Source of the DNA: Salinisphaera sp. Q1T1-3
Lineage (GTDB): Bacteria > Pseudomonadota > Gammaproteobacteria > Nevskiales > Salinisphaeraceae
Reading direction: 5' to 3'
DNA length: 64,000 nt
NCBI RefSeq assembly: GCF_003602005.1
Contig: NZ_QZWD01000017.1
Location: 1-64,000 of the forward strand
Part shown: positions 2,860-62,179 of the stretch, one piece after another
Numbering within the stretch: the first letter of the stretch is position 1
Layout: every line of letters begins with the position of its first letter
Position numbers and translations under genes: made by a program
The notes under the pieces: model-generated
Told to the model about the DNA's origin: nothing
Databases searched by the model: none
What the model saw: the letters and a program-made list of their open reading frames with translations, nothing else

Positions 2860-2901
2860 CCCGACGCAACGGCACACGTCCCCCGCCCTCAGGAGCCACC
2901 T

Positions 2902-4943: not shown

Positions 4944-4963
4944 ATTCGATACGAGATTTTTCC

Positions 4964-5689
4964 ATGCGTATTCTGGTCGCCAACGTCAATACCACCGCGT
5001 CGATGACGCACAACATCGCGGCACAGGCTCGCCGCGTGGCCCTGCCCGACACCGAAATCGTCCCCATCACGCCGGATTTCGGCGCGGAATCGGTCGAAGG
5101 CAACTACGAAAGCTACGTCGCGGCCGTGGCGGTGATGGAAACGATCCGCTCGTACACCGGCCTGTACGACGCCATCATTCAGGCCGGCTACGGCGAGCAC
5201 GGGCGCGAGGGCCTGCAGGAATTGTTCGACGTGCCCGTGGTGGACATCACCGAAGCTGCGGCCGCCACCGCCATGTTCGTGGGGCACCGTTATTCGGTCG
5301 TGACGACCCTGGATCGCGCGGTGCCGATGATCGAGGACCGGCTCAAACTGGCCGGGCTCTCGGATCGACTGGCGTCGGTGCATGCCAGCGGTCTGGCCGT
5401 GCTCGACCTCGAGCGCGACCCCGAGGCGGCCATCGAGGCGATCGTGGCCAAGGCCGGCCATGCGGTCGACCATGACCGCGCCGAGGCGATCTGTCTGGGC
5501 TGCGGCGGCATGTCCGGCCTGACCGCCCGTGTCATCGAACGGACGGGCGTGCCTGTCATCGATGGCGTCTCCGCGGCCGTCAAACTCGCCGAGGGCCTCG
5601 TGGCTCAGGGGCTCTCCACGTCCAAGATCCGGACGTATGCCCCGCCACGTCCGAAACACTTCGCCAATTGGCCGCCAACGCGCCGCTGA
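4964..5689 (+). CDS. Asp/Glu/hydantoin racemase family protein, probable allantoin racemase
   Basis: The 241-residue protein starts MRILVANVNTTASMT, the N-terminus of the hydantoin/allantoin racemase (HyuA/HpxA) family. Such enzymes interconvert the stereoisomers of allantoin or hydantoins using two cysteines. The second is present (GCGG, C180). The first, normally in an ACFGDPG context, is G75 here (QAGYGEHGREG). Either this is a variant subfamily with altered chemistry or substrate, or racemisation is lost. It is the last gene of the operon, 20 bases after the permease. Start: the ATG at 4964 gives the conserved N-terminus; longer reading upstream runs into the permease in another frame. 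Confidence 0.75.
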   Translation: MRILVANVNTTASMTHNIAAQARRVALPDTEIVPITPDFGAESVEGNYESYVAAVAVMETIRSYTGLYDAIIQAGYGEHGREGLQELFDVPVVDITEAAAATAMFVGHRYSVVTTLDRAVPMIEDRLKLAGLSDRLASVHASGLAVLDLERDPEAAIEAIVAKAGHAVDHDRAEAICLGCGGMSGLTARVIERTGVPVIDGVSAAVKLAEGLVAQGLSTSKIRTYAPPRPKHFANWPPTRR

Positions 5690-5783
5690 ATGGGCCGCGG
5701 CCGCGTGATCAGATCGTCAATCAATGCATGGCTATCGGGGGCGGCGCCGTCAGCGCGCTGGAAATATGGCGTCGCTATTGGAA

Positions 5784-5813
5784 AGGCGGTGCGCAGAAAT
5801 TTGCGCACCGCCT
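5784..5813. terminator. Strong hairpin after the allantoin operon
   Basis: AGGCGGTGCGC (5784-5794) pairs perfectly with GCGCACCGCCT (5803-5813) around an 8-base AGAAATTT loop, 95 bases after the racemase stop. There is no run of T after either arm, so it may be a Rho-associated 3' stabiliser rather than a classical intrinsic terminator. The rest of 5690-5929 shows nothing recognisable. Confidence 0.4.
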
Positions 5814-5929
5814 CCTGCAAGTCGTTGGCTACTACGGCCGGAAGCATCGCGACCAAATCATGAACCCGGCCTGGTTCAGTTGCGACGTTTCTTTACCGGT
5901 ATGCGCCTCGATACGCGCCTGTATGGGCA

Positions 5930-6271
5930 TCACGGGCCCTGTTCCGTTAGATGTTCCTCAATCAAACGCCGTAATAAATGCGTCGGCACATCGTCGGCAT
6001 CGGACTTGGAATATATCGTGACCAGAAGTATCCGATCCGGCGGACACAGGTAGTACAGACATCTATAGCCGCCGCTTTTGCCGCGACCGGCGTCACGGTT
6101 CTTGATGCGAACCTTGTAGGTGGGATAACCAACGCCCGAAACCCGATCGCCAAGTGTTTCGCCAGTCATGAGTGCCTGAATGATCGGCTCTACATCAGCG
6201 CGAATACGACGATAACGGCGCGATAGCTTGAGCAGATTTTTCTTGAACTCGGTTGAATACTCGACCCGCAT
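5930..6271 (-). CDS. RelE/ParE-superfamily toxin of a type II toxin-antitoxin pair
   Basis: A 113-residue basic protein beginning MRVEYSTEFKKNLLKL, with the RelE/ParE fold pattern: a central YKVRIKNRD strand, GKSGGYRCLYYL, and a C-terminal ILLVTIYSKSD strand. The RGKSGGYR motif resembles the HigB/RelE branch whose members cleave ribosome-bound mRNA; the biochemical target here is unproven. The ATG at 6271 overlaps the antitoxin stop (TGATG), the usual antitoxin-first arrangement. A TTG one codon upstream is also possible but unnecessary. The pair lies in an accessory stretch beside tRNA-Pro. Confidence 0.78.
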   Translation of the reverse strand: MRVEYSTEFKKNLLKLSRRYRRIRADVEPIIQALMTGETLGDRVSGVGYPTYKVRIKNRDAGRGKSGGYRCLYYLCPPDRILLVTIYSKSDADDVPTHLLRRLIEEHLTEQGP

Positions 6272-6492
6272 CAAGCCTGTTCAATCCCATCCCACAGCGA
6301 TTCGATGGCATGCACGCGGCCATCCCGAATATCCGCCAATCCGCGACGAATCGACTCGGCCGGATCAATCGCGTCGTCCACGGCCTCTCGATAAGCATGG
6401 ATAATAGTCAGCAACGCCTCGCGGCGATCCGGCGGGACACGGTCGATTTCCGCGTGCAGGCGCTCGGTTATGTTGTCCCCGGTGCTAGCCAT
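6271..6492 (-). CDS. Antitoxin partner of the RelE/ParE-like toxin
   Basis: A small acidic 73-residue protein starting MASTGDNITERLHAE, predicted to be mostly helical. It sits directly upstream of the toxin and overlaps it by one base. The start at 6492 is favoured over upstream in-frame codons because AGAGGA lies 8 bases before it. No clear DNA-binding motif is recognised, so its antitoxin role rests on size, charge and coupling. It would bind and neutralise the toxin. Confidence 0.65.
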   Translation of the reverse strand: MASTGDNITERLHAEIDRVPPDRREALLTIIHAYREAVDDAIDPAESIRRGLADIRDGRVHAIESLWDGIEQA

Positions 6493-6625
6493 CTCGGTAT
6501 TCCTCTTGACTGTCTGCAGTTTAGCCGATCGCTTGACCCGAGCCAATCAGCCCCACGCTTCGTTTGTCGTGCGCGCGACAAAGTACAAGCGTGTCAAAAC
6601 GCACTCCAGCAACAGATATCGCCTT

Positions 6626-7057
6626 TCAAGCGGCCACATCGTTTTCAGCAATGCGCTTACCCATGACTTCCTGGATCAGACCGAGCAGAAGCCGCCGCCG
6701 CGCGTCGATAAAACCGTGGAAGTCGTTTTCCCGCAAACGCGCCGCCGGGACACAATGGCTGGCCAGAATCGTGTCCATCTCGGCATCGCCCATCTGCACC
6801 TGCGGATCGTTTTGTATCTTTTGCAGATAGTGCGACGGTGCATCGCCACCGATCTTGCGATTCGCCTTGTACGAAATCGGCGTCTTGTTGATTATTATGT
6901 TGTCGTATTGCTTGACCGGAATACCCTGCGTTTCGCACCAGTAACTGGGGAAGATGTGGTGTATGTCCAGCGCGATCTCCTGGGCATCGAGCTCCTGAAT
7001 GCCGGCTTTCCAGAAGAAGTCTTGGGCCCCCTCGCGCAGCACCAACACGTTTCCGCG
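6626..7057 (-). pseudogene. C-terminal remnant of a GmrSD/DUF262-like HNH nuclease
   Basis: The readable protein (LVLREGAQDFFWKAG, then DIHHIFPSYWC, then YKANRKIGGDAPSHYL) matches the C-terminal HNH-type region of DUF262/DUF1524 proteins, the family of the GmrSD modification-dependent restriction enzymes. The catalytic HHIFP motif is intact, but the N-terminal NTPase-like half is missing. Reading upstream from the only possible start (GTG at 7048) meets a TAG three codons earlier, inside the CTAG bordering the MITE at 7062. The N-terminal half is not recognisable on the far side of the MITE, so the locus suffered deletion as well as insertion. About 135 bases separate it from the antitoxin gene. 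Confidence 0.65.
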
Positions 7058-7061
7058 CTAG

Positions 7062-7367
7062 GGCCGGTTGATGTTTCGTGCGAGTCCGCGCCAAGTGCGC
7101 CCTGAAATTGACGATGGGCGGCAAGACGAGGCCTAGCACGCATAGCGTGTCATTCTGCGCCAGGGTGCTAGAACGCTGTATTGCCGTCGTGTTCTTGATT
7201 TCGGGGCGCTTGTCCCGAAGGGTTGGGTCGCCCATGAAAAATCGACGATGGGCGCCCGGCGGCGTTGCGAGTCTGGATCGTGGCACGCCACGATCGGCGA
7301 CTCGCGCCTTGCCGGACACACGGCGGTCTCTCGACGAAAAGGCGCTCGAACGAAACATCAACAGGCC
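7062..7367 (+). mobile_element. MITE-like element, copy 1 (full length, 306 bp)
   Basis: The ends form an inverted repeat of about 23 bp with two mismatches; the shared core is GTTGATGTTTCGT next to GGCC termini. Flanking tetranucleotides CTAG (7058-7061) and TTAG (7368-7371) look like a 4-bp target duplication with one change. The interior holds a large nested hairpin (GATCGTGGC/GCCACGATC within GCGAGTC/GACTCGC) but no convincing gene. The same element occurs at 18165-18471, inverted at 43707-44012, and internally deleted at 39765-39906. Size, inverted ends and lack of a transposase define it as a MITE; CTAG-like targets suggest mobilisation by an IS5-type transposase (inference). Confidence 0.85.
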
Positions 7368-7607
7368 TTAGTCCAGTCTTGTCACGGCCCGTTGTCTTAT
7401 CGCCTCTCATGAACGACCTGGCCAGGCCCGGCCATCACGACCGTATCTGACATTGATCGGCAACGCCCGGTTTTGTCGTCACATCAAACGGCTGACACCG
7501 CGGCTCACCCGGGTGATGTCCTATGCCTGGAGAAAGCGCGCGGCCGACCGGCGTTGCAATCCGGTGACTTCACGGATTGCCGGTGGCGCTGTTTGACGCT
7601 AAGGAAA
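7368..7607. other. Non-coding gap downstream of tRNA-Pro with one hairpin
   Basis: No credible gene is seen. GCAATCCG (7556-7563) pairs perfectly with CGGATTGC (7573-7580), 28 bases past the 3' end of tRNA-Pro on the minus strand. No T-run follows, so a terminator role is uncertain. No repeat of the tRNA 3' end, which an integrated element would leave, was found near 5690-5930. Confidence 0.35.
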
Positions 7608-7684
7608 TGGTCGGGGTAGCAGGATTTGAACCTACGACCTTCTGCACCCCATGCAGACGCGCTACCAAACTGCGCCATACCCCG
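7608..7684 (-). tRNA. tRNA-Pro (GGG anticodon)
   Basis: The 77-base cloverleaf on the minus strand has a CGGGGTA/TACCCCG acceptor stem, discriminator A, an encoded CCA, and an anticodon stem TCTGC/GCAGA enclosing ATGGGGT, which gives anticodon GGG. It follows the merR gene of the pheST-ihfA cluster, the same position as in pseudomonads, which supports vertical inheritance of this side. Confidence 0.95.
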
Positions 7685-7728
7685 ACTGAGCGCGTTATTC
7701 TATCAAACCCCGGCGCGTTGTCACTCGA

Positions 7729-8109
7729 TTATTCGTCCATCAGATCACGAATTCTTTCCAGATCGCATCGGATGGCGACGAGCTGTTCACCGAGGCCCGG
7801 CGCCGGTACGGACGATGACGGCGTATCGCCGTTCAGGCGTGCTTTCGCGCCGGCGATCGTGAAGCCCTCGTCGTAGAGCAGCCCGCGAATCGCTCGTGCC
7901 GTCTCGATATCGGCTACGCGATAATACCGGCGGTTGCCGCGCCGTTTCGGCGGGTCGAGTTGTGGAAACTCCTGTTCCCAGTAACGCAGTACATGCGGCT
8001 TGACCCCACAAAGCGCGCTGGCTTCGCCGATGGCGAAGTAGCGCTTGTCGGGTATCGGCGGCAGCGAGGCGTCACTCGTCGTCGACAACCTGCAACTCGA
8101 CACGCGCAC
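7729..8109 (-). CDS. MerR-family transcriptional regulator next to ihfA
   Basis: Up to 126 residues. The N-terminal MerR winged helix reads [30 protein letters not shown] followed by RRGNRRYYR, nearly identical in pattern to the small MerR protein found after ihfA in Pseudomonas and relatives (described as family knowledge). The C-terminus is short and lacks metal-binding cysteines of CueR/MerR sensors, so the inducer is unknown. The start is uncertain: GTG at 8109 or 8103, or TTG at 8088, all overlap the end of ihfA. It is the last gene of the cluster before tRNA-Pro. Confidence 0.85.
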
Positions 8110-8371
8110 GCATCTTCTGCCCCGGCTTGAAACTCACGACTCGACGCGCGGAAATGGGTATTTCCTCGCCGGTCTTCGGGTTCCGGCCCGGTCGCTCGTT
8201 CTTGTCACGCAACTCGAAGTTGCCGAAGCCGGACAGTTTGACGTAATCACCGTCTTCGAGCGTTGTACGTAGCTCCTCGAAGAACAAGTCGACGAATTCC
8301 TTCGACTCGCGCTTGTTGAAGCCCAGCTGCTCGGCCAGCCCTTCCGTGATATCCGCTTTGGTCAGCGCCAC
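8072..8371 (-). CDS. ihfA: Integration host factor alpha subunit
   Basis: IHF-alpha pairs with IHF-beta to bend DNA sharply at specific sites in recombination and transcription. The 99-residue product has the HU/IHF fold: [11 protein letters not shown] at the start, [12 protein letters not shown], and [14 protein letters not shown], the beta-arm region. A GTG start at 8371 is chosen because all IHF-alpha proteins begin at this point and GGGGGGAG precedes it by about 8 bases; longer reading would overlap pheT. Only 4 bases separate it from the pheT stop, so it is cotranscribed with pheST. Confidence 0.95.
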
Positions 8372-8375
8372 TGAT

Positions 8376-10760
8376 TCACTCCCCCCTGAGACGCGCCCCT
8401 GCGTCACAGCGTAATGCCGCGACGATCGCCGTTGTCATTTCTTCAACCGATTCATCACTGAGCGTGCTCTCTTTATCTTGGAAAATCAAGCTCAAGGCGA
8501 TGCTCTTGTGATCTTCTTCGAGCCCTTGACCGCGAAAGACATCAAATACTTCCACGGAGCGCAGAACCGGTGCTTCGACCCCGGAGATGATCGTCCTGAG
8601 TTGTCCCACGGTCACCGACTCCGGAACCACCAAAGCCAGATCACGTCTGACCTGGGGCTGATCCGAGGGCGTATCAAAGCGGATGGCCACATCCTGCGGC
8701 AACGCCGAAACGAAAATCTCGAAAAGATACGGCAGCGTCTGGTTCTTGTAGCGCCGGGCGAACGTGGGCGCAAGCTGCCCGACCCAGCCGACTGGTGTTT
8801 CGTCCAGATGGATGCGGGCACAGCGGCCGGGATGCAGCGCCGGATGGCGTGCGGCGGTGAATGTCAGCCGCGGCGCGAGCCGCCCGAACAGGGCTTCGAC
8901 GTCGCCGCGGATATCGAAGAAATCGACCGGGCGTTCGATCTCACCCCAGTGCGTGGGCGCCGCACTGCCGGCCAGCAGACCGGCGATCATGGCCTGCTGG
9001 TCGTAGCCGATCGGCTGGGTTGCATCCGGCACGAAGGACAGTCCTTCCTCGTAGAGCCGCACGCGCGTCTGCTGGCGCCGCGTGTTGTAGGCCCAGGCTT
9101 CCAGCAGCCCGGCCCAGAGCGTGCGACGCATGGTCACCATCTGGTCGGAGATGGGATTGTCCAGCCGACCGGCCGGCGCGCTGCCGGTCAGCTCGTCATG
9201 CAGCCCCGGCGCCACGAAGCTGTAGGTGATCGCCTCGCTGTAACCGCGTTGCCGCAGAACCTGGCCGGCATCGAAACCGGCCTGGCGGGCATCGGCTGCG
9301 GAGATGGGCGGCATGCGCACGCCGGCTCGCTCGGTTTCCAATCTGTCGTAACCGTAGACGCGCGCAATCTCCTCGACGAGATCGGCCTCGATGGCCAGAT
9401 CGTAGCGCCAGCTGGGCGGGGTGACACGCCATTGACCCGCCCCTTCGGTCTCGACACGACAGCCGATGCCGTCGAGCACGCGCGCGATGGTGTCGTTGTC
9501 GATGGCCTGACCGAGCAGACGCGTCACCCGCGCCCCGGCCAGATCGATGCGACGATCCGTGATGCCTACCGGCACGCCCTCGGCGATCGTGGCCGGTCCA
9601 CAGGCGCCGCCGGCCAGATCCATGAGCAGCCCGCTGGCACGCGCTAGCGCACGCGCCGGCAATGCCGGATCGACGCCGCGCTCGAACCGATGCAGGGAAT
9701 CCGTGTGTATCTTGTATCGACGCCCACGGCCGACCACCGCCGCCGGCACGAAACAGGCCGACTCGAACAATACACGACGCGTGTCATCACCCACGGCCGT
9801 GCGCGCCCCGCCGATCATGCCGGCCATGGCCACGGGGCCATGGTCGTCGGCGATCACCAGCGTATCGTCGTCGAGGGTCACGGTCTCGTTGTCGAGCGTC
9901 TCGATCTGCTCGCCCGCGCGGGATAGCCGAACGCGGATCGTGCCGACAAGCTTGTCGGCATCGAAGGCATGCATCGGCTGGCCATACTCGAGCATGACGT
10001 AGTTGCCGATATCCACCGGCAGACTGATCACGCGCACGCCGGCCCGACGTAGACGCTCGGCCATCCAGAGCGGCGTCGAAGCCTGGCGATCGATGTCCTC
10101 GATGTACTGAGCGCCATACGCCGCGCAATGATCCGGCGCCTCGATCACGGCCTTCATGGTGCTCGCCGCCGTGGCACGCGGCGCGACCGGCGCGCGTTCG
10201 TCGAAGACGCCGTCCAGCCCGATCGCGACTTCGCGCGCGATGCCGCGCATCGACAGACAGTCTCCGCGGTTCGGCGTGAGATCGACATCGAGCACGGTAT
10301 CCGGCAGGCCCAGGTAATCGACCAGCGGCGTACCGACCGGCGCCGTTGCCGGCAACAGCCAGAGCCCGTCGCCCTCGCCGGATATGCCGAGCTCTGCCGC
10401 GCTGCACAGCATGCCGCGGGACTCGACGCCACGCAGCTTGGCTTTCTTGATCTTCATACCGCCTGGCATGTGTGTCCCGACGGTGGCCACGGGCACATGA
10501 ATGCCGGCGGCCACATTGGGCGCGCCGCAGACGATCTGTGCGGTCTCGTCGCCGGTATCCACCGTGCAGACCGAGAGCTTGTCGGCGTCCGGATGCGGCT
10601 CGCATGTCGCCACACGCCCGATCACGACGCCTGCCGTGGCGCCGGGTACGGCATCGATGGAATCGACTTCCAGACCCAGCATGGTCAATCGATCGGCGAT
10701 CGTTTCGAGATCGGCCGTGGTATCGACCCATTCACGCAGCCACTGCTCGCTGACTTTCAT
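8376..10760 (-). CDS. pheT: Phenylalanyl-tRNA synthetase beta subunit
   Basis: PheT forms the alpha2-beta2 enzyme with PheS and supplies tRNA binding and B3/B4 editing of mischarged tyrosine. The 794-residue length is normal. The N-terminus [12 protein letters not shown] is followed by the EMAP-like tRNA-binding domain (about 40-150, with [11 protein letters not shown] and CGAPN), then B3/B4 and B5 domains, and a C-terminal ferredoxin-fold anticodon-binding domain ([10 protein letters not shown] onward). It starts 9 bases after pheS. Confidence 0.97.
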
Positions 10761-10769
10761 GAATGCTCC

Positions 10770-11850
<1,081 letters not shown>

Positions 11851-11902
11851 CATCGATCGCTCATTATCGCGCCGGTTTGTGTGGCACCGGCCGCGCAGCG
11901 AT

Positions 11903-12259
11903 TCAGCCCAGGGCCGACTTGGCCGTGGAAACGACGCTGGCAAAGGCTGCCTTGTCGCGAACGGCCAGGTCGGCGAGGATCTTGCGATCCAGTTCGACGC
12001 CGGCCACCTTGAGACCGTTCATCAGCTTGCTGTACGACAGGCCCTGCGCCTTCGCGCCGGCACTGATGCGCGTAATCCAGAGCGAACGGAAATCGCGCTT
12101 GCGGTTGCGACGGTCTCGATAGGCATACTGCCCGGCCTTGAATACGGCCTGGCGTGCCACTCGGTACGTCCGGCTCCGCGCGCCGTAGTAACCCTTCGCC
12201 TGCTTGAGTACTTTCTTGTGACGGGCCTTGGCCGTCACGCCGCGACTGACTCGTGCCAT
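11903..12259 (-). CDS. rplT: Ribosomal protein bL20
   Basis: A 118-residue, very basic 50S protein needed early in large-subunit assembly. The sequence begins [18 protein letters not shown] and includes [14 protein letters not shown] and [13 protein letters not shown], typical of bL20. In E. coli L20 also represses its own operon by binding the infC-rpmI mRNA; the same gene order here makes that plausible. It lies 111 bases after rpmI. Confidence 0.98.
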
Positions 12260-12370
12260 CTTGGGCGTCCCTGTTTAAAGTTGAATGATCGAGCCGCTCA
12301 TCGGGGCCGGCTCATGGGCCGCTGATACGCCAGGACGCGCATCCGCAGGCCGGTGTCGTGATCCGCCTGT

Positions 12371-12568
12371 CTACTTGTAGGGGATCAGTCGATCCATCGC
12401 CGGCTGGTCGGCCTTGGCGACAAGCGTGCCCTTGGCCAGACGCTGCTTACGATCCGGCGACTTCTTGGTCAGGATGTGGTTCTTGAACGCACGGGCCCGC
12501 TTGAGCTTGCCGCTGCCGGTGCGCTTCAGGCGCTTCGCAGCACCTCGGTTGGTCTTGATCTTCGGCAT
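12371..12568 (-). CDS. rpmI: Ribosomal protein bL35
   Basis: A 65-residue basic protein of the 50S subunit, starting [21 protein letters not shown] and ending LIPYK, exactly as expected for bL35. The ATG at 12568 is preceded by an AGAAGG sequence only a few bases away. It follows infC by 34 bases in the conserved infC-rpmI-rplT operon. Confidence 0.98.
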
Positions 12569-12602
12569 AACCTTCTCGACTTGGTTGACTCGTACCGTGT
12601 CG

Positions 12603-13139
12603 CTACTTCTTGCTGTGCTTCGACACACCGCGGAGCGGCGACATCACCATGGTCATCAAGCGCCCCTGCATTTCCGGGCGCTGTTCGACCTGTGCCCACT
12701 CCTCTAGGTCGCCCTGGACATGTTCCATGAGCTCCATGCCGAGCTCCTGGTGTGCCATTTCGCGACCACGGAAGCGCAGCGTGATCTTGATCTTGTCGCC
12801 GTCTTCCAGGAATTCCTTGAGCTTGCGCAGCTTGATGTTGTAGTCGCCCTTGTCGGTACCCGGGCGGAACTTCACTTCCTTGAGCTGCGTCTGCTTCTGT
12901 TTCTGCTTGCCGGCCTGCTGTGTCTTCTTCTTCTCGAAGACATGCTTGCCGTAATCCATGATGCGCGTGACCGGCGGCGTGGCGTTCGGTGAGACCTCGA
13001 CGAGATCAAGGCCGAATTCACCCGCCTTGGCGAGCGCGTCATCAATCGACATGATGCCGACTTGTTCACCCTCGGGATCGATGACTCGCACTTCCCGGGC
13101 CGTGATCGCGTCGTTGCGGCGATCCTTTTGTGCAGCGAT
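12603..13139 (-). CDS. infC: Translation initiation factor IF-3, AUC start codon
   Basis: IF-3 binds the 30S subunit and rejects initiation at non-canonical codons. The 178-residue protein reads through [57 protein letters not shown] and [14 protein letters not shown], all standard IF-3. There is no ATG, GTG or TTG giving a full N-terminus: the only GTG (13091) would drop the conserved N-terminal segment ([13 protein letters not shown]). An ATC at 13139-13137 lies 8 bases after a perfect AGGAGG (13153-13148) and restores it. Non-AUG starts let IF-3 repress its own synthesis in E. coli (AUU), so AUC here fits the same autoregulation. Confidence 0.95.
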
Positions 13140-52311: not shown

Positions 52312-52508
52312 ATGGCCCGGGCTCGAACATGCCCCCAATCGTGTTCTGGCCCGCGGGTTCGTGAAAAAGACGTCGTTTGGCCCCGTGCATCGACACGACG
52401 ATCGCAACAGAACGTGCCGATCGCCACCGTGGCCGAGCAGAGCGATCGCCGGCAGCGCAAACCGGGCCGGTTTGGTTAGGATGGACCCAGGCGCAGTATG
52501 TTTTTAGT

Positions 52509-52541
52509 GGTGTGTCGCCGGACCATATCCGGCGACACACC
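52509..52541 (+). promoter_or_regulatory. Perfect 14-bp stem hairpin before the PAS-GGDEF gene
   Basis: GGTGTGTCGCCGGA (52509-52522) pairs fully with TCCGGCGACACACC (52528-52541) around CCATA. It lies 34 bases before the start. TTGGTT at 52471 and TATGTT near 52496 could form a weak promoter just upstream, which would put the hairpin at the transcript's 5' end. No T-run follows on either strand, so it is not an ordinary terminator. Confidence 0.5.
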
Positions 52542-52575
52542 CGCGATCTCGTCCAGTCATGGATATTCTGCATCG

Positions 52576-55392
52576 ATGACGACCGCACTCGACATTCTTG
52601 AGCAGCACGCGCAGGCCGGTACATGGCGGTTTGACCCGGAGACCGAAGAGCTCTGGTGGTCTCCGGGCGTTTATCGGCTCCACGGTCTCGATCCGGAAAC
52701 CGATCGTGCCTCGATCGAGTCAGCCCTGTCATTCTACGAGCCGGATTCTCGCGCACGACTCGAGGCGGCACTTGCCCATGCCCAGTCCAGCGGCGAAGGC
52801 TGGAATCTCACGCTGACGATCCGGCGTGCCGATGGCGTACTGCGCCAGACACAGGGCATCGGCGAAGTACGCCCCCGCCCCGGCCGACCGCCGCTGTTGG
52901 CCGGGGCGTTTTTCGACATCCACGAAGCCGCGGAGGCGCGTGATCGACAGCAAGCCATCGAGCGAGCACTCGCCGAGCAGGCGCATCGCTGGCAGACGGC
53001 CGGCGAGCACGCCGGTCTCGGACTGATGGAAATCGATATCACCGCCGATCGATATCGGATCTCCGGCGCCTTCGTGCAACGCAACGGGCTCGGCGATTGT
53101 GCCGAGCTCACCCTGGCCGGTACCGATTGGCAACATCTGATCGATGAACGCGATCGCGCCGGCCGAAATCGGCGTCTGAACGATCACTTGGCCGGGCGCA
53201 CCGAAGCCTTCGAGAGCGAGTTCCGCCTGCGTGTACACGGTCGGGTGCCGATCTGGGTTCGTGAAACCGGGCGGGCGGTTCGCGCCGACGACGCGCCGAC
53301 GCGCATCGTCGGCACGCTGGCCGATATCGATGCGCGAAAACGGACCGAACACGCGCTTCAGCAGTCCCAGCGGCGCTTGCGCCAGACATTGCACCACGCC
53401 CCGATCGGCATCGCGCTGGTCGCACCGGAAGGCCGCTGGATTTCAGTGAATCACGCGCTGTGCGAGATGATCGGCTACGACGAGGCCGAGCTCGGCGCGC
53501 TCACTTTTCAGGACATCACCCATCCGGATGATCTTGAAGCGGATATGGTCCTGGTAAGCGATCTTCTGACCGGCCGCAAACTCAACTATCGGTTGGAAAA
53601 GCGTTATTTCCATAAAGACGGCCATACCGTCGATATACAGCTCGATGTATCGCTACTGCGCGACGAGGCCGGCGAACCACTTTATTTCATCGCCCAGATC
53701 CAGGACATCACGGAACGCAAGCGCCAACACCGGGCCTTGTTCGAAGCACGCGAACTTGCGGAGATCACCTTCGAGGCCATCGGCGAGGGCGTCATCCGGC
53801 TCGATCGGTACGGCACGATCACACAGGTCAATTCGGCGGCCTGTGCCCTGCTCGATCGCAGCGCCGACTCGCTTATCCAGCACGCATTCACCGAATGCGT
53901 GACCTTCTACCACGCGGATTTCGATCAGATCCTGCCCAATCCCTTGTCTTCGGTTCTCATCGACGGCGGCCGCGCGGCGGTCCCGCTGTTCACGCGCATC
54001 ATGCGACACGACGGCAGCATGATCGCCATCACGGACTCGCTATCGGCCATCTATCACGACGACGGCCGGGTCGGTGGCGCGGTGTTCGTCTTTCAGGACA
54101 TCACCGAAGCGCGCCAGCGCACCATGGAACTCTCCCATCAGGCCAGCCACGACACGCTGACGGGCCTGGCCAACCGTCGAGGATTCCAGCGCGATCTTGC
54201 CGCGACCTGGCGGCGTGCCCGCAACGGTATGCTGCAGGCGTTCGTGATGTATCTCGATCTGGATCATTTCAAGGCCGTCAACGACAGCTGCGGACACGCC
54301 GCCGGCGACGATCTGCTGCGCCTCGTCGCCGAGCGTCTGCGGGCCGTGTTGCGCGATAGCGACGTGCTCGCGCGGCTGGGCGGCGATGAATTCGCAGCCA
54401 TTGTCCATGCCAACGACGCCGACGGCGCCCGGGTGGTCGCCGAAAAGTTTCTTCGCTCGATACGCGCCCTCCACTTCGTGCGCGGCGAGCGCACATACCG
54501 GCTCGGTCTGAGCCTCGGCATCGCTGCGCTGGACACCACCCTTGAAGGACCGGAGGCCTCGCTCGCCCACGCCGACGACGCGTTGTATCGGGCCAAGGCC
54601 GCCGGACGCAACGATTATCGCTTTCACGAGCCGGCCAATGCCGCGACCACGCCACGCCGCCGTCTGTCGCTGCACCTGGCGCCGATCGTCGACCAGGGGT
54701 CTCATGTCGTCGCTCAGGAACTCACCCTGCGGGCACCGGACGTCGCGCGCCACGGGCCGATGTCGAGCGGTGTCGCCACAGCCGGCGAGACCGTCACGCC
54801 ATCATCGACACGCATCGATCAATCCACGCTGGACATGGCCATCGAACTGCTCGAAGACGCCAGCGAAGCCGATGCGCTCGGCAGCGGCCCGCTGTGTATC
54901 AGCCTCAATGCAATCGAGCTGGCCGATCCGGCGTTCCAGAACCGGCTGTTCAAGCGGCTGGGCGACAGGCCGCATCTGGCGCCGCGCCTGATCTTCCAGC
55001 TGGCTGAACACAATGCGCTGTTCGACAGCGACCTGCCGCCGCTGGTCGCGCGCATACGCGGCTGCGGAGCTGCCGTGTGGCTCGTCGAGTTCGGCAGCGG
55101 TTACGACGGCTTCGAACTGCTCAAGCGCTATGTCTTCGACGGCGTGAAGATCGCCGCCGATTTCGCGCGATCGCTCACCGCAACGACCATCAATCGCGCA
55201 GTGCTTCGCGCCATCATGGACGTCGCCAAACGCCAACGGCTGAGTGTGGTGGCCGACGGCGTCGAGGACGACGCCGTATTTGCCCTGCTTTCCAAAGCCG
55301 GTATTCAGCGTTTCCAGGGGCGCCTGTATGCCCCGGCGCGCGCGGGATCGCGAGCCGAGACACATTCGGCGCATACCGACTCGCCAGACTGA
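52576..55392 (+). CDS. Multi-PAS diguanylate cyclase with degenerate EAL domain
   Basis: A 938-residue soluble protein with four PAS-like regions (about 10-120, 135-265, 270-395 and 400-530; the first contains WWSPGVYRLHGLDP of PAS_3 type), GGDEF (about 535-700) and an EAL-like domain (about 705-920). The GGDEF signature is intact (ARLGGDEF), and an RxxD inhibitory site (RDSD) lies five residues before it, so feedback-regulated c-di-GMP synthesis is expected. The EAL part has lost its motif (QELTLR) and DDFGTG is EFGSGY, so it should not hydrolyse. The ATG at 52576 begins where the PAS fold does; 26 upstream codons would include the hairpin. Confidence 0.9.
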   Translation: MTTALDILEQHAQAGTWRFDPETEELWWSPGVYRLHGLDPETDRASIESALSFYEPDSRARLEAALAHAQSSGEGWNLTLTIRRADGVLRQTQGIGEVRPRPGRPPLLAGAFFDIHEAAEARDRQQAIERALAEQAHRWQTAGEHAGLGLMEIDITADRYRISGAFVQRNGLGDCAELTLAGTDWQHLIDERDRAGRNRRLNDHLAGRTEAFESEFRLRVHGRVPIWVRETGRAVRADDAPTRIVGTLADIDARKRTEHALQQSQRRLRQTLHHAPIGIALVAPEGRWISVNHALCEMIGYDEAELGALTFQDITHPDDLEADMVLVSDLLTGRKLNYRLEKRYFHKDGHTVDIQLDVSLLRDEAGEPLYFIAQIQDITERKRQHRALFEARELAEITFEAIGEGVIRLDRYGTITQVNSAACALLDRSADSLIQHAFTECVTFYHADFDQILPNPLSSVLIDGGRAAVPLFTRIMRHDGSMIAITDSLSAIYHDDGRVGGAVFVFQDITEARQRTMELSHQASHDTLTGLANRRGFQRDLAATWRRARNGMLQAFVMYLDLDHFKAVNDSCGHAAGDDLLRLVAERLRAVLRDSDVLARLGGDEFAAIVHANDADGARVVAEKFLRSIRALHFVRGERTYRLGLSLGIAALDTTLEGPEASLAHADDALYRAKAAGRNDYRFHEPANAATTPRRRLSLHLAPIVDQGSHVVAQELTLRAPDVARHGPMSSGVATAGETVTPSSTRIDQSTLDMAIELLEDASEADALGSGPLCISLNAIELADPAFQNRLFKRLGDRPHLAPRLIFQLAEHNALFDSDLPPLVARIRGCGAAVWLVEFGSGYDGFELLKRYVFDGVKIAADFARSLTATTINRAVLRAIMDVAKRQRLSVVADGVEDDAVFALLSKAGIQRFQGRLYAPARAGSRAETHSAHTDSPD

Positions 55393-55701: not shown

Positions 55702-57498
55702 ATGAAAACCGCTCTGGCCATGCCGATCAGCCTGCTGTGTCTCCTGCTGACCGCAGCGGCCCACGCCGAGACGCGCGCCCTGAACAAGGACCTCGAACGC
55801 ACCGATGAAACCCCGGCCTACCGGCTTCACTGGCCCCTGAAAAAAACGGATTCAGGCTGGGAGGCGATCGTCGATCGGCCGGATGGCACGCCTTATTTGC
55901 GATGCCGGATCGTCGATCCGAACGCCCGGCCTATGCTGGCGGATGACAATCGCCGTGGGCCGGTCACCTTCTATTACGACAACGGACAGGTCCGACAGAC
56001 CGGCCAGTACGGCGACGGCGGGCGACTGATCGGCAAGGCCCGCACGTATCGTAACGACGGCAGTCTCCGGGACGTCCGTCGTTACACGCCTGCGGGTTAT
56101 CGCCTCATCAAGGCTTTTAACGCCGACGGCAGCGTCGCCCTCGAAAGCCTGCCCGACAAGGGCGTACGCACCGAACGGCAGAAACGCTATCGCGAAGACG
56201 GTTCGCTGATGCGACAGACCCACGTCGAGCCGGATGACAACGGCGATCCGATGGAAGTCGCGCGCCGCTACGACAGGCAAGGCGAGCTCACCGAGCGTCA
56301 GGAGATCCACAAGACCGTCCAGTTCACCGAGACGCTGACGGACGGCCATGTCGTGGAACGCCAGACCTTCAGTCGGCCCGAGGCCTGGTCGATAACCGAA
56401 CGCTTCGACGAAAACGGCCGATTGATCAAGCGCGATCGGCGTCTCCTGCCCGATTTCGTCGAGGACGGCGAGCAGATCTTTACGACCCGCGACGGCGTAC
56501 GTCGCGTATCCCACTACCGACAGGGCAAGAAGCACGGCCTCGAGACCGGCAAACGCGGCGGAACCTGGCTGCACCGAATCCGTTATCGCAACGATCATCC
56601 GGTCGGGCTTGGATTCGACGTGGACCCAGAAAGCGGCGAGGTGACGTTCACACGCTACGACGACACCGGAAAATATCTGAGCCGCTATGACGTCGAGGCC
56701 GACCTGATCACCCATGACGCCGACGGCAAGCCAAGCCTGCCCGATGCATGGGCCACGGTCAGACGAACCCTGCCCGCTCCGGGCACGACATGGCTTTACC
56801 AGTTCAACGACCGTCATCCGGTCCGTCTGCGGTTGCAGACGGTCAAAAACGGCGTGGCCCGTTACGACGTCGCCGATGGCCAGAGCGTGCGCGAGGAGAG
56901 CGTGGCCCGTTACCAGCCGATGGATGCGGCCGGCGGCCCGATGCTGCGTTTTCCGCTGCATCCCGGCGATCGATGGGAGTACGAAACCGAGCGGGTCATC
57001 CACGTACCAGCCGATGACGGCGCCCGGTGGCAGTATCGTTATCGCACGCACGTGGTCAGCCGTGTGACGGCCGTCGAGACGATCCGAGTCGGCGCCGGCA
57101 CCTTCAAGGCATTGCGCATCAGGCGTGGCATCAGCTGGTTCAAGGATCGTCCCAGCGGCGAAGGCGCCCGGTTCGATCGAATCGAAAAAAACGACGACGG
57201 CACTGTCAAGGGCTTCACGCAAGAGCTGCTCTGGTACGCGCCGAAGGCCGGACGTGTGGTGCTCAAGACACATGTGGCGTCCGGTTTGGCCAACGTGCTG
57301 GACCGTCCCGCCGCCGACCAGCTGACCAATGTCGCAACCTGGTTCACTGAGCTGGTCGGCCTGGCCGGCCCGGGCGAGTCGCCGTCGCCGGCCAGTCCAC
57401 AATACGCACGCGCCCCGCAGGCCCGCTGGATCGGGTTTCCGATGCAGCGCAACAACACCTGGGAATATCTGATGCAATCCCATTCGCCTTCGGAATAG
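55702..57498 (+). CDS. Secreted protein with MORN-like repeats
   Basis: A 598-residue protein with a signal peptide (about 1-23, ending AAHAE). Residues about 85-340 contain repeated G-x-(L/V)-x-x-x-x-x-(Y/F) strands such as FYYDNGQVRQTGQYGDGGRL, TYRNDGSLRDVRRY, RYREDGSLMRQT, RYDRQGELTERQ and RFDENGRLIKRD, the pattern of MORN-variant (YwqK-like) repeats. The C-terminal half (about 355-560) has PLHPGDRWEYE and VGAGTFKALRIRRG segments, which recall DUF3108-like beta-barrel folds. No enzyme motif is seen. A periplasmic scaffold or envelope role is possible. It is convergent with the helicase gene. Confidence 0.6.
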   Translation: MKTALAMPISLLCLLLTAAAHAETRALNKDLERTDETPAYRLHWPLKKTDSGWEAIVDRPDGTPYLRCRIVDPNARPMLADDNRRGPVTFYYDNGQVRQTGQYGDGGRLIGKARTYRNDGSLRDVRRYTPAGYRLIKAFNADGSVALESLPDKGVRTERQKRYREDGSLMRQTHVEPDDNGDPMEVARRYDRQGELTERQEIHKTVQFTETLTDGHVVERQTFSRPEAWSITERFDENGRLIKRDRRLLPDFVEDGEQIFTTRDGVRRVSHYRQGKKHGLETGKRGGTWLHRIRYRNDHPVGLGFDVDPESGEVTFTRYDDTGKYLSRYDVEADLITHDADGKPSLPDAWATVRRTLPAPGTTWLYQFNDRHPVRLRLQTVKNGVARYDVADGQSVREESVARYQPMDAAGGPMLRFPLHPGDRWEYETERVIHVPADDGARWQYRYRTHVVSRVTAVETIRVGAGTFKALRIRRGISWFKDRPSGEGARFDRIEKNDDGTVKGFTQELLWYAPKAGRVVLKTHVASGLANVLDRPAADQLTNVATWFTELVGLAGPGESPSPASPQYARAPQARWIGFPMQRNNTWEYLMQSHSPSE

Positions 57499-57562: not shown

Positions 57563-60500
57563 TCATCCACGGATGCGAGCGTTGAGCGCGTCCAGCTGAA
57601 TGCGGGTTTCCTCGGTCAGATTGCCGCTGTAGAGCATGGACGTTTCCATGTTCTTGAAGCGGCCTTCGCGGGCGGCGCTCGCCCAGTTGTACGAGCCGAC
57701 ACATAAAAAGCGATCATCGGCCATGATCAGCTTGCTGTGCACCTGCGTCACGACGTTTACCGTCAGGCCCATTGCCGTTAGGGCGGCACAGCACTTTTCG
57801 AACCGTGCGGTCCGATCGGCATCCGGCTGGGTCGCCTGCGTGGTATTGAAGTGATGATCGGTATAGATCGTGATCGCGACGTGGCGATCGGCCGCCTGTC
57901 GCAAGGCATCGGCGAGCCCGGTCTCCTCGAGTCGGTCCAGCGAAATCCAGGGCGAGACCAGAGCGACCCAACGGCGCGCGCCTTCGAGCAGCTCCCGGAT
58001 GCAACGATCGTGCGCTTCGGCATCGTTGATGAGACGCGGCGTTTCGCACAGCGCCAGCAAATCCGGTCGGGCCGCGCTCGCCGCGAACGGCAAGGCATTA
58101 TTCGGTTCGCTAAACAGATACCGGCCGAGCAGATGTCGCGGGCTGCCCCGCGCGGCGCTGCCGATCACGTCCATGTCGCCGAAAACCAGAAACGAATCGC
58201 GGGCGCGGGAGACCGCCACATTCAGCATCGCCGGATCGTCATCGATGAACCGGCCATTCGTGTGTCGCGAATAGACGCCCGAAAACAGCACGACATCGCG
58301 TTCGGCCCCCTGAAGCGCGTGCACGGTGCCGATCGTCATATCACCGGCCTGCGTACCGACGCTGATATCCCGCGCGCGACAGGCCTGTGCGATCAGGCGG
58401 GCCTGAGCCTTGAACGGCGTGACCACCCCGACGATCTGTGCCAACGGCTTGCCGTGAGTCTTTTCGAGCCGGGTGCGCTGATCAGCCAGCCATTCCGCGA
58501 TCGTGATTGCCTCCAGCCGGTTCACGCGGCTGCCCGACGCCGGTGTCTCGGCACAGCCATCCACGTGGACATAACCCAGCGGCGGCAGCGCCGGATCGAT
58601 GGCCGGCGTATCGCGCAACGGCTGCAGCAATCCGCGATAACAAAGCGCATTGCAGTAGGCAATGATGGCATCCAGACACCGTCGATGCGCACGTAGAAAC
58701 ATGCCGGCCTCGGCATCATCGAGATAGCGCACCCGGCTGGCGGCCTGCGCGATGCGCATCACGCTGCCATCGACCACGGTCCGCCCGCCTTCGCGCAGCG
58801 TGTCGTAGGCATCCCGATTCGCCAGAAGGCCCTGATGGGCCAGATTGCCGACATCGATGCTCGGCGACTGCGTCGCGACCGGCTTGATCTGATGGATATC
58901 GCCGATCGCCAGCAGGCGACGCGCCAGTGCCGTCGATGCGCCGGCCACGTCGGGGGCGACCTGCCCGGCTTCATCGACGATCAACAGATCGATCTCGTTG
59001 GTGAGATAATCCTCGCGGTATCGATCCTGGCCCTCAAAGACGCGATGCGTCATGTGCGAGGGCAGAGAATGCAGCGTCGAGACGATACAGGGCGTCAGCA
59101 TCATGCGACGCCGCCAGCGCGGACGGACTTTTTTCCGCCCCGGTTTTTCGCGCCCTCGGGCGGTCTGCTCGGTCAGTTCCTCGGCGCGTGCCGCACAGTC
59201 GGCGAGCCAGCGCGCTTCCCAGTAGTGGACCGCCCGTTGGAACAACGTGAAACGCAGCGATGTATCCAGCGTCTGATCGAACACATCGAACGAGTCTGGC
59301 ACGGCCGCGAAACCGAGCTTTCGATAGGCGTTATCCAATGCGGCATGCGCCGTGTCCAGCGCCTGAAGACAGGCCCGGCCGGTCTCCAGAAACGCATCCG
59401 CCTGCGCGACCGCCTGCCGCCGGTCGGCCAGAGCCTCGCGCAGCACGGATTCGGGGTCGCTGCCCGCCGGTGCGGCCTCGATTCGCTGGCGTGCGTCTGC
59501 ACTCAGCGACGTGGCGATGAAAAGCGCACGCCGGGCTCGACGTTTCCGGGCGACGGGCGGTACGAATGCGAACAGCGACAGCCACACGGGTTCCTCGGCG
59601 CACAGCCGTTGCCACTGTTGCAGATCGGCCAGATGCGCCTCTGCCTCGGCCTGTAGCCCATCACGTCGTTGCTGCGCTTGGGCCAGTCGTTGTTCGGGGG
59701 CATCGCCCAGCCGTTCGACGAGTTCTGCATGACGCGCGGCGCGATCCGCCCAGCGGCGCTGCAGGGCCTGCAATCGGCCCCGCGTGCGCTCGAGCTCTTG
59801 ATGGAGCCGTTCACGAACCGTGTCGACATCGTCCAGCGTGTCGTCTTCGAATGCCCGTCGTGCGTGGCCAAGGAATGCGGCCTCGGCCGTATCCAGATAT
59901 ACCGGCGATTCGAGACGACGATAGAAAGCCGGGGTCTGATAATGGCGAGCGGCATCGTCTTCCCGGCTGCGCGCCGGATAATAGCCGCCGTAGCTGTCGA
60001 TACCGGGCAGCCAGCGCCCGCCGAAGGGGTCGTCGGTCTCTTCGAAACCGTCGGCGAAGGCTTCCAGGATGTTCGTTACCGCCTGATTGTTGGAGGACGC
60101 CGCCACGATCAACGGCGGTTCGGTCTGGTCGAGCGCTGCCTTGACCCATTGCGAGGCCACCACTGACAGCACGAACGTGGTCTTGCCGGTGCCCGGCGGC
60201 CCGTTGACCGCCAGCAGTTCGCCCTCCCCCAAAGCCATGCTCTGCGCCAGCGCGTCGCGTTGCGCAATCGCCAACGGATACCGTGTATTGGCATGGCCGA
60301 GGCGATCCATCGCGCCTGTCCCCGCGGCAACACAAGGCCGATGCGATTCGACGTGACGCTGCGCATAGCCCTCGACGAGCGGCAGTGGTTGATCGGCGAC
60401 AGAAAGCCAGTCGTACAGTTTGATGATGTGATGCGCCGCGCCCAACTGGTCGTCGACTTTCGCAAGCCGTGCCTCATCTGCGCTGACGAACGCCGTGTCG

Positions 60501-61084
60501 AGGAACGCTCGCGGGCAGAGGTCGTTGAAAAGTGACCGCGAGAGATCGTAATAAGCCTTCCAGGGCACGTCGCCGGCATCGTCATCGAGCAGCGCGAGCG
60601 CTTCGCTTGCCGACCAGACCGCGGGTTCGGCCCGACTCAGCACACGATCCTGATCGGCGACATGCGCGAGCGTGAATCGATCGTCGGCCTGGGGCTGCAA
60701 GAGATCACGTGGAATGACCGGGGGCTCGGCGGGAATGAACCGACCGTCGCGGGCAACCCACAGGCCACAGAGCAGCGGCGTGACGACATCCGGATACAGC
60801 GCCTGTTTCTTCTGGCCGTGTGCCTGCAATACCTTGAAGACCGCCGGGCGCAACACCACCCGCACCAAGCGTGTCGTTGCCGGCTCATCCGCGAAAAGCG
60901 CGGCCAGGGCTGGGTGGTCTGACGGCAGACGCCCGTCGCGATAGAACGACGCCGCCAGGCTGGCCGTGCCGCGCAACGCGCTCTCACTCAGCGCGCCGCG
61001 CCCGCTTTGTGAATCAGCCAGCGAATGACGCCAGTAACGCAGCCAGGCCCGCGTCGTCGAGGTCATCGTCTCGTCGTGGCTCAT
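57563..61084 (-). CDS. SF1 helicase fused to a C-terminal PLD-type nuclease (Mokosh type II-like)
   Basis: A 1173-residue protein. The N-terminal region (about 1-280) is unassigned. An SF1/DNA2-NAM7 (COG1112-type) helicase follows, with Walker A GPPGTGKTT near 297, Walker B LLIVDEAGQV near 700, and later motifs GDIHQIKPVA, GVVTPFKAQARLI, GTVHALQGAERDVVLFSG and NVAVSRARDSFLVFGD. A long insertion between Walker A and B (about 400-560) contains a coiled coil. The last 170 residues are a phospholipase-D-like nuclease with one HKD motif (HSKLIMADD, near 1115). This architecture matches the single-protein Mokosh type II anti-phage system (MkoC). The start at 61084 is one of several. Confidence 0.82.
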   Translation of the reverse strand: MSHDETMTSTTRAWLRYWRHSLADSQSGRGALSESALRGTASLAASFYRDGRLPSDHPALAALFADEPATTRLVRVVLRPAVFKVLQAHGQKKQALYPDVVTPLLCGLWVARDGRFIPAEPPVIPRDLLQPQADDRFTLAHVADQDRVLSRAEPAVWSASEALALLDDDAGDVPWKAYYDLSRSLFNDLCPRAFLDTAFVSADEARLAKVDDQLGAAHHIIKLYDWLSVADQPLPLVEGYAQRHVESHRPCVAAGTGAMDRLGHANTRYPLAIAQRDALAQSMALGEGELLAVNGPPGTGKTTFVLSVVASQWVKAALDQTEPPLIVAASSNNQAVTNILEAFADGFEETDDPFGGRWLPGIDSYGGYYPARSREDDAARHYQTPAFYRRLESPVYLDTAEAAFLGHARRAFEDDTLDDVDTVRERLHQELERTRGRLQALQRRWADRAARHAELVERLGDAPEQRLAQAQQRRDGLQAEAEAHLADLQQWQRLCAEEPVWLSLFAFVPPVARKRRARRALFIATSLSADARQRIEAAPAGSDPESVLREALADRRQAVAQADAFLETGRACLQALDTAHAALDNAYRKLGFAAVPDSFDVFDQTLDTSLRFTLFQRAVHYWEARWLADCAARAEELTEQTARGREKPGRKKVRPRWRRRMMLTPCIVSTLHSLPSHMTHRVFEGQDRYREDYLTNEIDLLIVDEAGQVAPDVAGASTALARRLLAIGDIHQIKPVATQSPSIDVGNLAHQGLLANRDAYDTLREGGRTVVDGSVMRIAQAASRVRYLDDAEAGMFLRAHRRCLDAIIAYCNALCYRGLLQPLRDTPAIDPALPPLGYVHVDGCAETPASGSRVNRLEAITIAEWLADQRTRLEKTHGKPLAQIVGVVTPFKAQARLIAQACRARDISVGTQAGDMTIGTVHALQGAERDVVLFSGVYSRHTNGRFIDDDPAMLNVAVSRARDSFLVFGDMDVIGSAARGSPRHLLGRYLFSEPNNALPFAASAARPDLLALCETPRLINDAEAHDRCIRELLEGARRWVALVSPWISLDRLEETGLADALRQAADRHVAITIYTDHHFNTTQATQPDADRTARFEKCCAALTAMGLTVNVVTQVHSKLIMADDRFLCVGSYNWASAAREGRFKNMETSMLYSGNLTEETRIQLDALNARIRG

Positions 61085-61264
61085 GTGGCCGCTTTCTCCC
61101 CTGAATGCCGTCATCACGCGGGATCGCCCCGGTCAAAACGATCGATACCCGAACATCGCGCGAGCGCGCTGCAGTACCAGCGCTGATTGCGGCCGCCGAC
61201 CGAGACACTCGCCTGACGTCGTTGTTCAATACCGGGACCGATGGCGTGCGATCCGCGCCGGACG

Positions 61265-62179
61265 CTACCAGAGCACGCCCTTTTCCGGTTCGATCGGCGC
61301 TGGCGCAGGCTGCTCGATGGATTCCATCAGATCGATTTCGATGGTCGTACACATGGCGCTCAAGGGCAGATCGTGTGCCGTATTGGCGAACGGATCAACC
61401 AGCTCGTCCCCGATCCGCAGGGCAGCCAGAAACATGAGCGCGATCAACGATGAACCGATCGGCGTGAAGATCCCGAGATACGGGGCGATGCCCACCGGCA
61501 GCAGAATGCAGAACAGACGCACGAACAGCTGCGGGAACAGACGATACTGCATCGGCAGCGGTGTCTTCTTGATCCGCTCCATGCCACCCTGCGCGTTGGC
61601 GATGTCGATATTCACGGCTTCCATGCGCGATTGCTGGATCGTGTCGATATAACCCTCGGCCCGGGCCCGGGCGATCAGCCGGCCATTCTCGTTGAGCAGG
61701 GCATTGGCCGCGTTGGTCCTGTCGAGCATGCGCTCGGCATCGGTCGGCCGCAGGAGCCGATTCGCCGGCCCTGCCCGATCGGTTCCGCGAAGCTGGCAGC
61801 TCAGAATATGCACGTACGCGGCCTGGTTCGTGACGATGGCATCGCGTAGTTCTCTTGCACGGGCATCGGCGGTGCCGATGAACGACAACGCACAGCGCGA
61901 GATATTGCGCGATGCGTTGATCATCAGCCCCCACAGCACCCGCCCTTCCCACCAGCGGGCATAGGCCGCGTTGGAACGAAAACCGAGGAACAACACCAAC
62001 ACCGTGCCGAACAACGTCAATGTCGTGCGCGACAGCGCCGAGGACTGAAAATCGGTATAGCGCTCGGGCTGGGCGAAATAGACGAACGTCACGATCACGT
62101 CCCAGATGAACGTGAGCAGCAACGGGCGCCAGATCTCATTGAAGATATGGCGAAAACGGGGAACGGTCGTCACGATCAT
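61265..62179 (-). CDS. Bestrophin-like channel protein (UPF0187/YneE family)
   Basis: A 304-residue membrane protein. It has the bestrophin N-terminus (FNEIWRPLLLTFIWDVIVTFVYF), the first-helix FLGFRSNAAYARWWEGRVLWG motif, and C-terminal RIGDELVDPFANTAHDLPLSAM, the region that forms the cytoplasmic channel wall. Bacterial homologues are pentameric ion channels, and KpBest is cation-selective. The physiological role is unknown. It lies 180 bases upstream of the helicase gene on the same strand; cotranscription is uncertain. Confidence 0.87.
   Translation of the reverse strand: MIVTTVPRFRHIFNEIWRPLLLTFIWDVIVTFVYFAQPERYTDFQSSALSRTTLTLFGTVLVLFLGFRSNAAYARWWEGRVLWGLMINASRNISRCALSFIGTADARARELRDAIVTNQAAYVHILSCQLRGTDRAGPANRLLRPTDAERMLDRTNAANALLNENGRLIARARAEGYIDTIQQSRMEAVNIDIANAQGGMERIKKTPLPMQYRLFPQLFVRLFCILLPVGIAPYLGIFTPIGSSLIALMFLAALRIGDELVDPFANTAHDLPLSAMCTTIEIDLMESIEQPAPAPIEPEKGVLW

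Follow-up and report, generated by a model that had tools for sequence, protein, structure and literature searches.

A full-length, intact mkoC gene in Salinisphaera sp. Q1T1-3, probably encoding a Mokosh type II anti-phage enzyme gained by horizontal transfer

In the anti-phage system Mokosh, a helicase and a PLD nuclease are encoded by separate genes (type I, MkoA and MkoB) or joined in one protein (type II, MkoC). A passage in one article attributes the degradation of viral transcripts to Mokosh and offers no test of this itself (PMC11291487); the table of one review lists its mechanism as unknown (PMC12926258), and a table in another connects Mokosh with alterations in functional phage proteins such as DNA polymerase, single-strand-binding protein, helicase or terminase (PMC10286901). 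Judged by titles and abstract openings, no paper on the biochemical mechanism of Mokosh type II was found in the open-licence literature searched. Here, we analyse mkoC of Salinisphaera sp. Q1T1-3, a single gene located in the first 64,000 nucleotides of contig NZ_QZWD01000017.1 (hereafter, the window). Judged from its sequence, it is a full-length, intact MkoC of an architecture already known, and we found nothing that distinguishes this copy. As a whole, our observations are very probably best explained by an anti-phage MkoC of Mokosh type II, proposed to work as a nucleic-acid motor and cutter, that was gained by transfer.

The PADLOC profile of MkoC (Mokosh type II) matched the window protein with 1191.8 bits over residues 7-1169, corresponding to positions 1-1134 of the 1136 in the model. 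The match is thus full length with the PLD part included, and this profile check bore out the Mokosh type II assignment proposed by a sequence-only reading of the window. The next PADLOC families were MkoA, with partial matches of 113 and 82 bits from two models (best stretch, residues 697-976), MkoB, with 54.9 bits over residues 1017-1139 in the PLD part, PDC-S37 (27.3 bits) and DrmC (at most 26.8 bits). All NCBIfam scores were far under their cut-offs, for example 90 bits of 999 for the PLuB helicase, 68.5 of 348.9 for the IGHMBP2-family model TIGR00376, and 33.3 of 133 for DrmC (NF038319); a better fit to a housekeeping family, which would have spoken against the assignment, was therefore not seen. 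The profile libraries used hold no COG1112 model, and this label for the MkoC helicase comes from a passage in the literature.

The reading frame proposed at 57563-61084, for which no strand had been named, was found on the minus strand, where it runs intact from an ATG at 61084 to a stop at 57563; the plus strand over the same positions is interrupted by stops. An alternative GTG start at 61117 would add 11 residues, and a sequence resembling a ribosome-binding site, AGGGGAG, was seen by eye upstream at 61102-61096. Promoter and terminator scans at mkoC gave matches at about the level of shuffled sequences. Compared with three relatives, the gene differs at a fraction of 0.52-0.57 of third codon positions and at 0.19-0.23 of first and second positions. 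Taken separately, the N-terminal part, the helicase and the PLD likewise diverge most at the third position (0.51-0.57; up to 0.30 for the others). Because third codon positions differ most, we read mkoC in the window as a maintained gene that is constrained in all three parts.

Pfam domains and motifs agree with the layout proposed earlier, that of one protein joining a superfamily 1 helicase to a C-terminal PLD domain with one HKD motif (Table 1). AAA_11 and AAA_12 in the helicase and PLDc_2 at residues 1033-1140 each scored over the gathering cut-off. Besides the motifs in Table 1, the helicase carries GDIHQ (728-732), QGAE (925-928) and SRA (959-961), so that motifs I, II, III, V and VI are all intact. 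The pattern HxKx4Dx6GS occurs exactly once, and its residues H1116, K1118, D1123, G1130 and S1131 are invariant in 15 of 15 aligned PLD-bearing proteins. Across 15 full-length proteins, the window protein included, 196 of its residues are invariant and spread over all parts; conservation is lower in the N-terminal region and in the insertion between motifs I and II than it is in the helicase core. These two regions had been suggested to be distinctive. They are instead family features, since both occur in the MkoC model and in 14 full-length aligned relatives; that the N-terminal 280 residues lack an assigned fold did hold. The long insertion was borne out: a model of good confidence shows about residues 385-663 as almost entirely helical, and the position of the insertion presumably corresponds to domain 1C, or the "prong", of Upf1-type helicases. 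The genome itself holds 10 PLDc_2 matches, mkoC among them.

Based on 19 aligned sequences, AlphaFold2 produced a model of MkoC with a mean predicted local distance difference test score (pLDDT) of 85.8 and a predicted template modelling score of 0.73. Its nearest structures in the PDB were IGHMBP2 (4b3g, Z 22.9, 473 residues, 4.0 Å), UPF1 (6ej5, Z 22.5, 474 residues, 3.8 Å), Sen1 (8rao, Z 22.3, 543 residues, 5.5 Å) and Dna2 (5ean, Z 21.1, 459 residues, 3.6 Å), with senataxin also among the top-ranked RNA helicases; matches within Z 1 of each other count as tied, and differences this small leave RNA and DNA helicases unseparated. These full-length matches, obtained with VIA, span residues 7-1004, and the PLD part lies outside them. 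Modelled alone, residues 1-265 reached a mean pLDDT of 77.6 and resembled no solved fold significantly: the top VIA hit had Z 4.8 over 53 residues, and Foldseek returned nothing at 0.001. Because the full-length alignments to Upf1-type helicases begin near residue 8, residues 1-265 may be a diverged Upf1-type stalk and 1B barrel.

The active site of a PLD nuclease needs two HKD motifs. MkoC carries one per chain, and its cutter should therefore be a dimer. We propose that the Upf1-type helicase would load on and move along a nucleic acid produced by infection, and that this movement would bring in or unleash the PLD domain, which would cut the target as a dimer. The most likely target would be phage RNA or an RNA-containing structure; RNA is favoured because the literature, in the passage mentioned above, describes Mokosh as RNA-directed (PMC11291487). 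A serious possibility, though one that we hold to be somewhat improbable, is that MkoC acts on DNA in the manner of Dna2, as a helicase-nuclease by which intermediates of phage replication would be resected or cut. Dna2 is nearly level with UPF1 among the structure matches, the PLD part also matches the models of NucT and of DrmC from DISARM, under their cut-offs, and 4 of the 34 relatives described below lie near type I restriction genes, which target DNA. The phage-protein changes listed in the review table would fit such a role as well (PMC10286901). The top structure rows, however, are the RNA helicases IGHMBP2, UPF1, Sen1 and senataxin, albeit tied within Z 1, and the degradation attributed to Mokosh in the passage cited is that of viral transcripts (PMC11291487).

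The distribution of mkoC is patchy. In genome searches that scored a limited number of best candidates per genome, full-length mkoC was found only in the window's genome among 41 genomes ranging from the genus to the order, and in none of the 13 other genomes of the genus. At 1e-3, 18 of the 41 gave some match, 17 of these covering at most 266 of the 1136 model positions. Synteny conserved in all relatives, which would have argued against a defence role, was thus not seen, the full-length gene being present in 1 of 41. In the class, 271 of 274 genomes had no match at 1e-80, and the three with one were the window's genome, G064, with a fragment near a contig start (model positions 506-1133), and G143, with a protein covering positions 5-964 only.

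A scan of genome contigs seeded by six query peptides, and hence not a census, identified 34 relative loci (numbered with the prefix L). The helicase-PLD frame is intact in 14 of them (L035, L037-L045, L047-L049, L053) and interrupted or split over several frames in four (L036, L046, L051, L052); one copy ends at a contig end (L068), two are distant (L065, L066), one is divided into adjacent helicase and PLD genes (L050), and 12 lack the PLD (L054-L064, L067). In locus L045, a 109-residue frame just upstream of the full-length gene (9971-10300) is 48% identical to residues 1088-1171, as if it were the remnant of a second copy.

The nearest relatives of the window protein are 65-71% identical to it and come mostly from Halomonas-group genomes. 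In a tree of the helicase part with 29 rows, from which interrupted copies were omitted, the window protein groups with L035, L037, L038 and L048 (Halomonas, Alloalcanivorax) with support 100/100. Since the tree places it with these proteins and the searches of the 13 genus mates gave no full-length copy, horizontal transfer into the window's genome appears to be the simplest reading, and we infer that mkoC was gained from or through the Halomonas-group pool. An identification of recent gain by base composition was rejected, as there was no compositional sign of it.

Mobile elements also carry relatives. Matches to MkoC were found in 685 plasmid records, all under 60% identity, and in 41 of these the match at one place spans 80% or more of MkoC; of the 30 plasmid matches listed, 19 come from Agrobacterium tumefaciens, on plasmids that are mostly alike in size. 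Seven phage-collection records match, one of them over at least 80%. In E. coli, DNA similar to part of mkoC is present in 854 of 5,426 genomes, in none to 80%; at one E. coli locus, an integrase at tRNA-Phe is followed by a homologue of 1171 residues that shares 38% identity and has the HKD motif.

Type I restriction genes lie near mkoC in 4 of the 34 loci (L035, L037, L046, L048), in a block at about 1500-9300 of the locus that ends 0.6-0.8 kb upstream of mkoC. All four loci have hsdR, hsdM and a stretch resembling hsdS, which is only partial in L046 and 40% identical in L037; in three, an AAA/AbiLi-like and RloB/AbiLii-like pair is inserted in the restriction set. The mkoC copies of these loci are 65-71% identical to the window protein, that of L046 being interrupted. 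The search used the restriction set of L035 only, which under-counts other defence genes; a PADLOC scan of the relatives' neighbours covered 92 of the 149 open reading frames (ORFs) prepared, in 10 of 14 loci, and its matches at 1e-20 or better include SoFic, methyltransferases and further families as well. In the Halomonas-group pool, mkoC may thus accompany type I restriction operons. The defence and mobile context of the gene is seen through its relatives, with their restriction genes, plasmids and integrase island; the window copy has no defence island.

The window copy lacks the restriction genes seen near four of its closest relatives, and the copies of L036, L046, L051 and L052 are interrupted or multi-frame, as might be expected if it were the leftover of a lost restriction-Mokosh island and no longer relevant as defence. 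We consider this very unlikely: the frame of 1173 codons is intact, every catalytic motif is in place, the three parts are constrained, and action by a single gene is what type II predicts.

A further group of relatives bears on how MkoC matches are to be read. The 12 PLD-less loci all belong to Bacteroidota, with matches near 10001-13000 (near 1380-4313 in L063), and no PLD-like frame of at least 80 codons was found in the flanking DNA examined, which is less than 5 kb for L063. The four PLD-less proteins scanned nevertheless scored 908-967 bits on the PADLOC MkoC profile, with matches ending at model positions 963-969 of 1136, because the helicase carries this profile. The window protein passes a stricter test, since its match extends through the PLD part. 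Passages in two papers describe Tenacibaculum mkoC with a PLD nuclease effector (PMC10013915, PMC11672841); this description fails for the nine Tenacibaculum loci found here, a statement on these loci and not on the strains of those papers. In 9 of 9 Tenacibaculum loci, the same gene series follows downstream, with a class-III aminotransferase first, and the upstream side differs among them. The PLD-less loci of Cellulophaga, Sphingobacterium and Flavobacteriaceae do not share this downstream order.

The Tenacibaculum genes, from their conserved downstream order, may resemble core genes, and for this reason part of the wider MkoC-like family may be housekeeping. To extend this to the window protein, and see in it a PLD-bearing helicase for RNA or DNA with a housekeeping function and no role in defence, seems extremely unlikely to us, given that no full-length copy was found among the candidates scored in the 40 other genomes, that the class genomes are nearly all without a match at 1e-80 and two of the three matches are partial, and that relatives are carried by plasmids or stand close to an integrase or to restriction operons. 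Identity as a housekeeping helicase was rejected on this patchy distribution and the sub-cut-off profile scores.

Other relatives show the helicase with different companions. In Mixta theicola (L050:10010-13548), a 997-residue helicase is followed after about 27 bp by a separate PLD protein of 172 residues. In G143, of the same class as the window's genome (L094:243-4301), a PLD-less MkoC-like helicase of 992 residues is followed by a gene that matches the PADLOC defence candidate PDC-S42 (369 bits) and had no homologue in the other loci examined at 0.01. In a distant Bacteroidales relative (L066:9188-12718), DUF2726 and HTH_40 stand behind the helicase in place of the PLD, and they are possibly another exchanged cutter. 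The variants thus comprise a fused PLD (the window and 14 relatives), a separate PLD (L050), a PDC-S42 neighbour (L094) and no PLD (12 Bacteroidota). A tentative and, in our view, unlikely idea is that the helicase, N-terminal region and insertion form a self-contained sensing module that can swap its cutter or do without one, and that in Tenacibaculum may have become part of the core genome. If true, Mokosh type II would be one branch of a broader set of helicases whose outputs differ.

Several points weigh against the interpretation of the window gene as a Mokosh type II anti-phage enzyme gained by transfer. The MkoC profile score alone is no proof of the system, as PLD coverage decides. The GC content of mkoC at third codon positions (0.743) falls within the range of 14 other window genes (0.741-0.845), and loss in all sampled genus mates could account for the distribution in place of gain. 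The nearest structures are RNA helicases together with the DNA helicase-nuclease Dna2, so that RNA is a likely rather than a certain substrate. Additionally, no strongly matching defence gene was seen beside mkoC: a defence scan of 56 other chosen ORFs, drawn from the window and the adjoining 20 kb on its right, yielded nothing beyond weak matches to PbeA and NYN at 1e-10 or better, a looser threshold than the 1e-20 applied to the relatives' neighbours.

Table 1. Coordinates of mkoC, its parts and its neighbours in the window
Feature	Position	Strand	Basis
mkoC, helicase-PLD fusion, 1173 residues	57563..61084 (including stop codon)	-	One open frame; PADLOC MkoC match
N-terminal region, residues 1-272	60269..61084	-	Conserved in relatives, so family-wide; no fold assigned when taken alone
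Helicase motif I (Walker A) GPPGTGKT, residues 295-302	60179..60202	-	Invariant in 19/19 alignment rows
Long helical insertion between motifs I and II, residues 372-663	59096..59971	-	Predicted secondary structure; present in relatives
Helicase motif II DEAGQ, residues 704-708	58961..58975	-	D704, E705, G707, Q708 invariant in 19 rows
Second RecA domain (AAA_12) with motifs V and VI, residues 792-971	58172..58711	-	Pfam, 71.8 bits
PLD nuclease domain, residues 1021-1170	57575..58024	-	PLDc_2, 34.3 bits (cut-off 27); MkoC model; MkoB and DrmC matches
Single HKD motif, residues 1116-1131	57692..57739	-	Motif search
MORN_2-like protein, convergent neighbour, not part of the system	55702..57498	+	27.6 bits, just under the cut-off of 29.6
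Bestrophin-family channel, same-strand neighbour, not part of the system	61265..62179	-	PF25539, 223 bits

The genes that flank mkoC in the window are, as read earlier, a MORN-like and a bestrophin-like gene, which that reading took as no known defence partners. Homologues of either were found beside 0 of the 34 MkoC relatives at 1e-10, and both genes were rejected as partners. Of the 14 genus genomes, only the window's own gave a full-length match to the MORN-like gene, G003 adding two short pieces; the bestrophin gene occurs in six, its own included, the other five having no full-length mkoC. As far as the MORN, bestrophin and L035-type restriction queries sought at the 34 loci show, mkoC is a single gene without an obligate partner. 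No empty insertion site could be defined in the genus with the bestrophin neighbour and a 14-kb DNA query, since the surrounding gene order is not kept across the genus. Flanking repeats as insertion borders were rejected, as only short imperfect pairs were found. Elsewhere in the window, a gene on the plus strand (52498-55392) encodes a PAS-GGDEF-EAL-type protein in which GGDEF is intact and the EAL signature seems, by eye, to read ELT; its phosphodiesterase half may be inactive.

The window copy adds one intact Mokosh type II enzyme to a genus in which the 13 other genomes searched have no full-length gene. The PLD-less proteins that score as MkoC bear on published counts of Mokosh type II, and the published calls of mkoC with a PLD effector in Tenacibaculum need checking. 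The fused, split and PLD-less forms are natural separation experiments with which to study how helicase and nuclease share the work.

Upf1-type superfamily 1 helicases (IGHMBP2, UPF1, Sen1, senataxin and Dna2) share the helicase core and the general order of the parts with MkoC, at Z 21-23; residues 1-265 of MkoC, taken alone, are without a significant counterpart, and to our knowledge Upf1-type helicases carry no PLD domain. The DISARM DrmC and NucT nucleases share the PLD domain with its HKD motif, but MkoC scores far below their NCBIfam cut-offs, and we know of no DrmC or NucT nuclease fused to a helicase. The animal piRNA pathway includes a MOV10L1-like helicase and the PLD protein Zucchini. 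It also sets a helicase and a PLD nuclease against foreign genetic elements, a likeness to Mokosh that would be one of function only; no Argonaute gene turned up here, and no search was aimed at one. For Mokosh type I, domain homology to that pathway is stated in a passage of one article (PMC11291487). Type I shares with the window protein a partial helicase match (MkoA) and a PLD match (MkoB). As far as the sources describe it, its helicase and PLD lie on separate genes, together with kinase and NERD parts, whereas the window protein is a single fusion and so falls outside type I. With Mokosh type II, the window protein agrees in architecture, length, full-length PADLOC match, single HKD motif and single gene, and the window copy differs from four of its nearest relatives in standing without the type I restriction genes found near them.

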